DNA of 64,000 nt from Bacteroidetes bacterium CG2_30_33_31. GTDB lineage: Bacteria > Bacteroidota > Bacteroidia > Bacteroidales > UBA1556. Below the pieces are notes generated by a model that saw only the letters and a list, made by a program, of their open reading frames with translations, was not told the DNA's origin and searched no databases. A program made the translations under genes and the position numbers. Location of the stretch: positions 1 through 64,000 of the forward strand of contig MNXP01000023.1 of NCBI GenBank assembly GCA_001872625.1. Reading direction: 5' to 3'. Positions 46,916-50,414 of the stretch are shown piece by piece; the first letter of the stretch is position 1; each line of letters opens with the position of its first letter.

Positions 46916-47461
46916 TTATTTCATCTCGATGTTTTTTAAGTGTTTGGCTTGTTCTTTTTTCAACATCGAATCTTCCAGCAATTTTTCGCCTGGCTTAATT
47001 AGAAGTGCGAGTAGGCATTTAAGAGTTATACCAATCCAGAAAGGACTTATGAGTGGTTTTGATGTGCCAAAAAAGTAGGTAACTAAATTATCTATCTGAG
47101 GCTCAAGAATGGCAGAGGTGGCTATGAATAATAATATTGCAACAAACAAAACAATGGTAGAAGCTCTTCTTCCAATTTTTGCTTCAGTTACAGCGGTGAT
47201 AGCCTCTTTTAATTGAATATTTTTATCATTAAGTTCTGCATTCAAAAATTCAAGTTTCTCATTTGTGGTATTTAGTTTCCCTTGCAGCCTATCACTGATT
47301 TTAGTAATGATTTTTACTTGGTCAACAAGTTCTTCATAATTTTCCACCAACTTTTTGTATTCAAGCTGGATATCCATCTTTGAGTACTCAGGTCTGCGCA
47401 AAAAATTTTTTGCCTGCTCTAAGTTTTCGAGTTCCTTTTGATATATACTTTGATTAGCCAT
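46916..47461 (-). CDS. Coiled-coil membrane protein downstream of siaBC
   Basis: A 181-residue protein I do not recognise as a family. The first ~95 residues form a coiled coil, with KLVENYEELVDQVKIITKIS followed by DRLQGKL; this stretch looks like the linker that precedes GGDEF or SpoIIE output domains in many signalling proteins. Two membrane segments follow (about 103-120 and 140-157) and a basic tail. No catalytic domain is present. A TTG at 47467 is possible but the ATG at 47461 is preferred. It begins 15 bases after siaC, so a partner in the same signalling path is likely. Confidence 0.65.
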   Translation of the reverse strand: MANQSIYQKELENLEQAKNFLRRPEYSKMDIQLEYKKLVENYEELVDQVKIITKISDRLQGKLNTTNEKLEFLNAELNDKNIQLKEAITAVTEAKIGRRASTIVLFVAILLFIATSAILEPQIDNLVTYFFGTSKPLISPFWIGITLKCLLALLIKPGEKLLEDSMLKKEQAKHLKNIEMK

Positions 47462-47476
47462 AGACAATTGTTGCTA

Positions 47477-47857
47477 TTAATCTTCTATCACCAATATTTC
47501 AAAAGGCAGTCCGCTTACATCTTGATAATCTTCACCAGTCTCCATCATTTCTTCATCATCTTCATCATAATACCATTTGACACTAACTTTTTTACCATCA
47601 TTAAGTATTCCTTTAAGACGTTTAAAAATTTCAAGAATATATTTAGAGGAGGATGTGTTGAAATATTCTAATTTAACATTTATAATTGTCTCATCTTTTG
47701 CCACTAAATTATATTCATCAAGCCATAAAAGAACTGGATTAAAAAACTCAAATGTGTTTTCTGGGATAGAGCGTCCGCTTAATTTTAAAACACCAGTTGA
47801 AGCATTGAAACTTATTGCTGGAGTTTGTTTTGTTCCTTCGATTTCTATATTTGTCAT
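47477..47857 (-). CDS. siaC: SiaC-family regulatory phosphoprotein (DUF1987)
   Basis: A 126-residue protein matching SiaC. The phosphorylation site of Pseudomonas SiaC is Thr68 in a NTSS motif, and here the residue at position 68 is Thr in FNTSSSKYI. The N-terminal IEGTKQTPAI and later KVSVKWYYDEDDEEM also match the family. In Pseudomonas the unphosphorylated form binds and activates the diguanylate cyclase SiaD. No SiaD or SiaA gene is beside it. It is 11 bases after siaB on the same strand. Confidence 0.88.
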   Translation of the reverse strand: MTNIEIEGTKQTPAISFNASTGVLKLSGRSIPENTFEFFNPVLLWLDEYNLVAKDETIINVKLEYFNTSSSKYILEIFKRLKGILNDGKKVSVKWYYDEDDEEMMETGEDYQDVSGLPFEILVIED

Positions 47858-47868
47858 AATATTTTTAT

Positions 47869-48411
47869 TTAATTATTTTTTGCAATTTTAACTTTTAAAC
47901 TAAAAAACGATAATATTTCATTTACCTCATTAAATTCAAATTCGAGTTTTTGACCTGATTTTCTAGCCATATCAATCATACCTAAATCGGCTCCTCCTTT
48001 ATTGGAAATAATGTTATTATCTAATATCTCACGATAATATTTTCGCAAATCATCTTTTTCCATAGCATTTACTCTTTCAATTCTATCTTTCAGGCGAGGA
48101 ACTTCTGCTGACTTTATAAAATTTCCAGTGGTAATATAATAAAATTCATTGTCAAAAAAAAGTTCTAACATGGCAGATCGAATAGAACGCTCTTGCTCAT
48201 TTTCTGGTTCAGCATGATGATACAAATTTTGCATACATTCAACCAGAATATTAAAAATCTTCTTTTTAACAGTTCCTTTTTCTTGGGCGGCATCGAGCTT
48301 TGACTCCATAATTTGAAGAACCATAGTAACTATGTCCGAAGTAATTTCTCCCTTGAAGGACAATATGATGTGATTGTCCATCATAGCCTTAAATCTTGTA
48401 TATACATTCAT
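47869..48411 (-). CDS. siaB: SiaB-family protein kinase
   Basis: A 180-residue kinase of the SiaB family (DUF6272), a GHKL-like fold that phosphorylates SiaC on threonine. The N-box is NILVECMQNLYHHA and the G-box like turn is NKGGADLGMIDMARKSG. It is the first of three tightly spaced genes (siaB, siaC, coiled-coil protein). No -7 box was found in the 96 bases before it. The assignment rests on the pairing with siaC and on these motifs. Confidence 0.82.
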   Translation of the reverse strand: MNVYTRFKAMMDNHIILSFKGEITSDIVTMVLQIMESKLDAAQEKGTVKKKIFNILVECMQNLYHHAEPENEQERSIRSAMLELFFDNEFYYITTGNFIKSAEVPRLKDRIERVNAMEKDDLRKYYREILDNNIISNKGGADLGMIDMARKSGQKLEFEFNEVNEILSFFSLKVKIAKNN

Positions 48412-48507
48412 GATTCGTATATTAATTTAACAAGCACTAATTTATATATAATATTAAATGATAAAATTTTATTTTTAATCTTATTGCAGCTCCAATTAAA
48501 AACTTAA

Positions 48508-49286: not shown

Positions 49287-50414
49287 TCAATATTCATCTA
49301 AAATTAGAAGATAACTTTTAGAAGTCTCTAAAATTGAAATTGAATGAACTCCATTGAGTGAAAATTTATCTTTTCCTCTAAAATTTGGAATTGTTGTAAT
49401 TTCCGTTTCTTTATAATTCATGCTATCAATAGTATTTATATAAAATGACCTGATTCCGTTGCCGTAATTTGGATAATCATCTTGAGCAAATCTTATGAGT
49501 GAATCGTTTTTTATAAAAATATTTCCAGCCATTCTTGAGGCATCTGCATCATCATGTTTTATTGGGTTTTTAGGATGCGATTTCCAAGGGTCTAAAGGTG
49601 ATTTTGAATAATATAAATACAGATTTGCATTCGATGTGGAGGTAAATAGCCACCAAAGATTTTTGTATTTAAAAATTATATTGTCAAGATAATTACCTCT
49701 ATCTAAAATGCTCTTTTCGAACTTCCATGAATATGGGAAATCTATTGATTTATAAAGCCTTATGCTTTTCGATTTGGCTGATTCTGGTATCATATAATAG
49801 CTGCCATTCCAGGTGAAGACGCAGGGGAATGAAAGATGAAATGACTCTGAAAGTACTACTTTTTCATATTTCCATTGCAGTCCGTCGCGACTTGATGCCA
49901 TTCCAATTTCTCCTTTTTTTGTTGACGAATTAAAAACCTCAAAAAAGGTATAAAATTCATTTTTATGTTTAATTAAAAATGGATCAGCTGTAAATTCTGC
50001 TTTTACGTCATTTATATCTTCTGCTTGAATAATTGGATTTTTTATTTTGCTAATAATTAACTTGCTAAGATTTGTTTTTTCGAGTTGATAAGAGGCTATT
50101 TTCCAAATGGCTCTATTATTTTTATTAAAATGTATCGAGTAATTAAAAAGTAGTATTGTAGATATTATAAGGTAAGAAATGAAGATTGTAAGCTGAATTT
50201 TTATCGAAATATTTTTCATATATTTGATGCAAATGCTTGATATAAATACAAAAATTATATTGGATATTCCTATGTAAATTAGCATTTTATCAATCTTTCC
50301 AAGGTTGATTTGTTTCCAAGATATATAGTCATGAGCAAATGGGAAAATTATTAAAAATATGGCAAGCAGTAGAATAGAGATGTAAAAAACTGATATAATA
50401 TTTTTATTCTTCAT
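49287..50414 (-). CDS. Membrane-anchored GINT1-type beta-propeller protein
   Basis: A 375-residue protein with three N-terminal membrane segments (about 8-26, 44-65 and 73-92) and a C-terminal propeller starting near residue 135. The propeller shares motifs with the fusion protein at 20435-22090: FHLSFP, MIPES, and an identical RMAGNIF (294-300), then GVHSIS. Unlike the fusion, it has no formyltransferase-like domain. With three segments the propeller would lie outside the inner membrane if the N-terminus is inside. It starts 4 bases after the CLC gene stop. It may be a glycan-modifying or binding protein; function unknown. Confidence 0.7.
   Translation of the reverse strand: MKNKNIISVFYISILLLAIFLIIFPFAHDYISWKQINLGKIDKMLIYIGISNIIFVFISSICIKYMKNISIKIQLTIFISYLIISTILLFNYSIHFNKNNRAIWKIASYQLEKTNLSKLIISKIKNPIIQAEDINDVKAEFTADPFLIKHKNEFYTFFEVFNSSTKKGEIGMASSRDGLQWKYEKVVLSESFHLSFPCVFTWNGSYYMIPESAKSKSIRLYKSIDFPYSWKFEKSILDRGNYLDNIIFKYKNLWWLFTSTSNANLYLYYSKSPLDPWKSHPKNPIKHDDADASRMAGNIFIKNDSLIRFAQDDYPNYGNGIRSFYINTIDSMNYKETEITTIPNFRGKDKFSLNGVHSISILETSKSYLLILDEY

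Follow-up and report, generated by a model that had tools for sequence, protein, structure and literature searches.

What does a SiaB-SiaC phosphorylation switch act on when the gene that follows siaC encodes a membrane protein and not a diguanylate cyclase? In Pseudomonas aeruginosa, the SiaABCD system comprises the kinase SiaB, the phosphoprotein SiaC, the phosphatase SiaA and the diguanylate cyclase SiaD (PMC7647112, PMC8457831), and in the open-licence papers searched a function for DUF1987/SiaC proteins is described only in Pseudomonas, as the activator of one diguanylate cyclase. In the 64,000-nt stretch of DNA analysed here (the window), ORF calls place siaB, siaC and a 181-aa gene in tandem on the minus strand, separated by 11 and 15 bases, the same arrangement and spacing that an earlier note made from the letters of this DNA had described. 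The features of the locus are as follows.

47869..48411, minus strand: siaB-family GHKL protein kinase, 180 aa (NCBIfam SiaB_fam_kinase, Pfam DUF6272, alignment to 6KKO chain A)
48238..48240, minus strand: SiaB Glu58, aligned with P. aeruginosa Glu61, the residue predicted to be catalytic (alignment and PMC7647112)
47477..47857, minus strand: siaC-family phosphoprotein, 126 aa (Pfam SiaC; gapless alignment to PDB 6kko_C/7e6g)
47654..47656, minus strand: codon of SiaC Thr68, the residue predicted to be phosphorylated, within Y65-F-N-T68-S-S (translation and alignment)
46916..47461, minus strand: stalk-2TM protein, 181 aa, with a predicted SiaC-binding stalk and a two-TM hairpin (ORF, hydropathy, AlphaFold, profile search)
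47222..47461, minus strand: predicted SiaC-binding stalk domain, residues 1-80 (non-2TM stalk profile; NCBIfam SiaD stalk match)
47282..47302, minus strand: K54-I-S-D-R-L-Q60, equivalent of SiaD R80-I-S-D-R-Y-Q86 (invariance in 18 sequences; alignment to 7e6g chain A; PMC8457831 contacts)
46937..47221, minus strand: two-TM candidate output module, residues 81-175 (family alignment; also on REC, TPR and propeller proteins)
47105..47161, minus strand: transmembrane segment 1, residues 101-119 (hydropathy; within helix 28-131)
46994..47044, minus strand: transmembrane segment 2, residues 140-156, with Lys148 (hydropathy, peak 137-155; helix 140-180; column counts)
48412..48507, no strand: the 96 bases that separate pyrH from siaB; at this place same-genus relatives have TPR-caspase and propeller-SpoIIE phosphatase genes (locus comparison)

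The window also encodes, at 49287-50414, a protein of 375 aa that has TM segments and a domain resembling GINT1_N/GH43.

The first two proteins belong to the Sia families. The SiaB protein matches NCBIfam SiaB_fam_kinase with E=9.7e-47 (158.8 bits against a cut-off of 85) and Pfam DUF6272 with E=7.9e-40, and it aligns with P. aeruginosa SiaB (6KKO chain A) with E=3.8e-13. Glu58, in the N-box VECMQN, falls on Glu61, the predicted catalytic residue in P. aeruginosa (PMC7647112). The SiaC protein matches Pfam SiaC (PF09345) with E=1.4e-42 (144.6 bits against a cut-off of 24.5), aligns without gaps with P. aeruginosa SiaC (6KKO/6KKP/7E6G; E=1e-19) with Thr68 on Thr68, and keeps Y65, N67, T68 and S69. 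The earlier description of a SiaB-like kinase and a SiaC-like phosphoprotein with Thr68 in NTSS is thus borne out by curated models scored above their cut-offs and by the gapless alignment. SiaC misses the equivalog model NF038265 (108.9 bits against 150), and SiaB, SiaC and the stalk all score under the NCBIfam cut-offs for the P. aeruginosa equivalogs; SiaB and SiaC are therefore family members, not the Pseudomonas proteins. Across the order, SiaC is present in 122 of 295 genomes, many with at least 14 copies, and a genome-wide search found one in the window genome.

The third protein carries a stalk of the kind that SiaC binds in Pseudomonas. In the SiaC-SiaD crystal structure (7E6G), SiaC Thr68 reaches in between a parallel pair of SiaD stalk helices, where it contacts S82 and Q86 of the motif RISDRYQ, and phosphorylation blocks this contact (PMC8457831). 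The Kd of Pseudomonas SiaC for SiaD was 49.8 nM. In a PDB-wide profile search the window stalk aligned weakly with SiaD (7e6g chain A, E=0.66). Because this match was too weak alone, an independent stalk profile was built, made only from siaC-neighbour proteins that lack the hairpin (GGDEF, histidine kinase, SpoIIE and stand-alone proteins). This profile matches residues 1-80 of the window protein with E=2.5e-17, the best of 254 window frames, the runner-up having E=0.11. Furthermore, of the 18 members of the stalk-2TM family, 12 have a stalk that the NCBIfam SiaD model recognises. The SiaD contact residues S82, D83, R84 and Q86 correspond to S56, D57, R58 and Q60 in the window stalk, and T53, S56, D57, L59 and Q60 are invariant across the 18 sequences. 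The SiaD-type SiaC-binding motif is present once per chain here, against two in SiaD. Over residues 32-97, 83% of the a/d heptad positions are apolar, and S56 stands at an a position. The protein itself is not SiaD, as it has no GGDEF domain and reaches 17.2 bits against NF038266, in the stalk region only (cut-off 290). In two relatives (L064 and L085) the stalks are 100% identical at a dS of 1.7, which, judged from the sequences, is a sign of strong constraint on the stalk; for the window gene dS is saturated and gives no dN/dS estimate.

The cassette is conserved well outside the window. A SiaC similarity search of the named genome collection gave 12 loci, and in 11 of them the stalk-2TM gene lies directly after siaC; 8 of these are from Bacteroidales-type and 3 from Cytophagales-type MAGs. 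With whole-genome searches added to the collection, 17 genomes show the order siaB-siaC-stalk-2TM, and L084-L094 are all among them. The cassette is conserved in many Bacteroidales MAGs, in the three Cytophagales-type MAGs and in one further family. In the Cytophagales-type loci (L092-L094), SiaB and SiaC are fused in an ORF of about 321 aa beside a dCache-HAMP-GAF-SpoIIE gene. In one genome (G527) the pair is unlinked, the stalk-2TM gene being on contig C40 and siaC on C46, and its SiaC falls within the clade of SiaC proteins paired with stalk-2TM (support 0.98 in the SiaC tree).

Elsewhere in Bacteroidota, the gene after siaC encodes the stalk joined to other domains: GGDEF (L007, L010), histidine kinase (L008, L029), SpoIIE (L018, L020, L073) or adenylate cyclase (L022, L028). 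These proteins (as in L007, L008, L018 and L022) share with the window protein the N-terminal stalk and the place after siaC, but end in an enzymatic domain whereas the window protein ends in a two-TM hairpin. Since the same stalk is fused to enzymes at this position, the hairpin takes the slot of an output domain, and the resemblance that the earlier note saw between this coiled coil and the linkers before GGDEF or SpoIIE domains reflects membership of one stalk family. A bare stalk is found beside siaC in four further loci (L014, L015, L026, L031), such stalk-only proteins having 78-86 aa. In three cases (L014/L077, L026/L078, L031/L076) a bare stalk of 77-85 aa lies between siaC and a large gene of 979-1269 aa, which in L077 encodes a 1260-aa protein with TPR and triple AAA ATPase regions. 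The SiaD-type stalk, the contact motif, the conserved siaBC neighbourhood and the pair kept unlinked in one genome all make the third protein, at the level of sequence, very probably a target of SiaC, as had been proposed. The TonB-dependent receptor gene downstream is kept within the genus at 60-70% identity and is absent from other families, so a functional link was rejected in favour of synteny. The convergent receptor beside the unlinked stalk-2TM gene of G527, with 28% identity over a third of its length, was likewise treated as synteny.

The third gene had been said to stand in place of both SiaA and SiaD, neither of which was seen. Neither is indeed present in the neighbourhood, where pyrH is followed directly by siaB with no SpoIIE/PP2C gene beside it; a genome-wide search for a distant phosphatase and cyclase found four SpoIIE genes elsewhere in the window genome and no GGDEF. 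GGDEF was also absent from 7 of 8 other stalk-2TM genomes and from 8 of 9 further hairpin genomes tested (exception: G160). For the SiaD output the proposal therefore stands, but for SiaA it does not, because relatives carry SpoIIE beside siaB along with stalk-2TM. In most relatives a SpoIIE phosphatase gene lies immediately upstream of siaB. The operon in the same genus reads pyrH, TPR-caspase, propeller-Y_Y_Y-SpoIIE, siaB, siaC and stalk-2TM, and in other relatives a TPR-SpoIIE, REC-SpoIIE or dCache-HAMP-GAF-SpoIIE precedes siaB or is fused to SiaB. Two other loci (L067 and L090) have no adjacent SpoIIE either, and their genes are intact. The SpoIIE protein of the relatives' operon matches three of the four SpoIIE proteins of the window genome at 37-40% identity, against 45-60% among the operon copies themselves. 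The likeliest reading is that the window genome lost the linked phosphatase. The protein upstream of propeller-SpoIIE in relatives, which is absent at the window locus, combines TPR with a caspase-like domain (L088:1704-4046, L087:1715-4063, L171:9686-10999), the latter recognised by Pfam Peptidase_C14 in L171 and by GHG and DACESG motifs in L088 and L087.

The remaining part of the third protein is the hairpin. AlphaFold gives an unbroken helix at 28-131, in which the stalk continues into TM1, followed by another helix at 140-180 (mean pLDDT 81, pTM 0.41). With the heptad register and hydropathy, this upholds the earlier description of a 181-residue protein with a coiled coil and two membrane segments. 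Positive charges flank the cytoplasmic ends of both TM segments, which suggests from sequence that both termini are inside. Within the family, the distance from motif to TM differs by exactly 7 residues, that is, one heptad, and the register is kept. As modelled, the continuous helix, the heptad register and the 7-residue step fit, without proving, mechanical coupling along the coiled coil. The family alignment gives the hairpin consensus N.QL.ETID.LTEAKIGRKA.TIV....LF..SE..IEP.ID....GL..K..IA.LIKP.E, in which an intramembrane Glu and Lys are conserved and P157 and E159 are invariant. The window copy has Ser at 116, a position occupied by Glu in 19 of 20 relatives, and a loop 11 residues longer than theirs, so its state may differ from that of its relatives. 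With the adjacent phosphatase also lost, the window copy may be retuned or decaying.

Pfam and NCBIfam scans assign the hairpin to no family and return only scattered weak single-member matches, and Foldseek of the stalk-2TM model against the PDB gives nothing under E=3, an outcome to be expected of so simple a helical hairpin. Matches of the hairpin profile to AcrB-like proteins (L151) were rejected as chance, as they lie inside the transporter TM region and end before the P-x-E motif. The same hairpin is C-terminal in REC-coiled-coil (L071) and TPR-coiled-coil (L075, L149) proteins, and it also ends propeller-Y_Y_Y-TM (L150) and secreted TPR-TM (L152, a weak match) proteins. In these proteins the input is a receiver, a TPR array or a periplasmic propeller, whereas in the window protein it is the predicted SiaC-binding stalk. 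The hairpin thus appears to be an output module and not an anchor; it would be either an effector or the recruiter of one, the label 'output' being taken solely from its domain position. It may even be an undescribed output domain of Bacteroidota, interchangeable on stalk, REC, TPR and propellers, through which several unrelated systems converge on one c-di-GMP-independent membrane action; we put this forward tentatively, at slightly less than an even chance.

A passive role for the third protein has to be weighed against this. It could be a membrane tether that holds SiaC near a membrane-bound SpoIIE sensor, with another protein as the real output. Two TM segments with no catalytic domain recognisable by Pfam or NCBIfam would suit a tether, and the stalk-only proteins beside siaC imply that a stalk can do without an output. 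However, the propeller and secreted TPR sensors that end in the hairpin (L150, L152) already have a TM of their own and would need no further anchor, so that a purely anchoring role is disfavoured. The Glu and Lys conserved within the membrane, together with the invariant P157 and E159, exceed plain hydrophobicity, and the window genome has a single SiaC and no GGDEF. We therefore consider a tether unlikely. It is still less probable that SiaC acts on some other target, such as a TerB-ABC transporter, and that the third gene is accessory. A gene of about 1024 aa encoding TerB-ABC_tran-ABC2_membrane is the commonest neighbour of siaBC in the order, but it is not at the window locus, the representative copy in L155 has no stalk motif, and the SiaC proteins paired with stalk-2TM form a separate clade. 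This gene lies near siaBC, usually on the opposite strand, in L115, L122, L126, L130-L140 and L154-L163, and its association in many Bacteroidales is possibly another SiaC-linked system. A last reading is that the window cassette is a degenerating remnant, its phosphatase lost, its SiaC fixed in a single state and its hairpin drifting. This agrees with Ser116, with the longer loop and with the TPR-caspase and propeller-SpoIIE genes that congeners have beside siaB and the window locus has lost. It is nevertheless very improbable, since no ORF of the three is disrupted, the protein sequences retain the motif, T68 and the kinase Glu, the genome still has four other SpoIIE genes, and L067 and L090 keep intact genes without an adjacent SpoIIE.

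In the preferred reading, which we hold to be probable, a threonine-phosphorylation switch of the SiaABC type has as its output a membrane protein in place of the diguanylate cyclase SiaD. By homology, SiaB would phosphorylate SiaC at Thr68. A sensor-linked SpoIIE phosphatase, encoded beside siaB in relatives and presumably acting from elsewhere here, would remove the phosphate. Given the stalk family and the contact residues, unphosphorylated SiaC would then dock on KISDRLQ of a parallel dimeric stalk, and with one site per stalk chain, two SiaC per dimer are proposed. Docking may tighten or re-register the coiled coil, which is predicted to run unbroken and in register into TM1, and so change the state of the hairpin. 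The hairpin, used also by the REC, TPR and propeller sensors, would perform the membrane action, possibly through a partner that it recruits or gates.

This scheme shares with P. aeruginosa SiaABCD the SiaB-family kinase, the SiaC-family Thr68 protein and a coiled-coil-stalk target with (K/R)ISDRxQ, and, through the relatives of the window locus, a SpoIIE/PP2C phosphatase adjoining siaB. It differs in that the target ends in a two-TM hairpin instead of GGDEF and has a single SiaC site per stalk where SiaD has two, and in that the window locus has no phosphatase gene. In the parallel systems HsbR/HsbA-HsbD and BgrSTUWV-BgrR, a STAS-like protein under Ser/Thr phosphorylation activates an adjacent output, as proposed here (parallels in PMC8457831). 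However, those systems use STAS proteins and diguanylate cyclases, whereas SiaC is STAS-like in structure only and the window output is membrane-bound.

A switch that controls biofilms in Pseudomonas thus seems to be wired to a new membrane output in an uncultured Bacteroidales bacterium. The loci indicate that the stalk is a portable predicted SiaC-docking domain standing before at least five different outputs, one of them a membrane hairpin of no named family, found too at the C-terminal end of receiver and sensor proteins. Given its high copy number, at least 14 in many genomes, the SiaC switch may be a major signalling currency in uncultured Bacteroidales.
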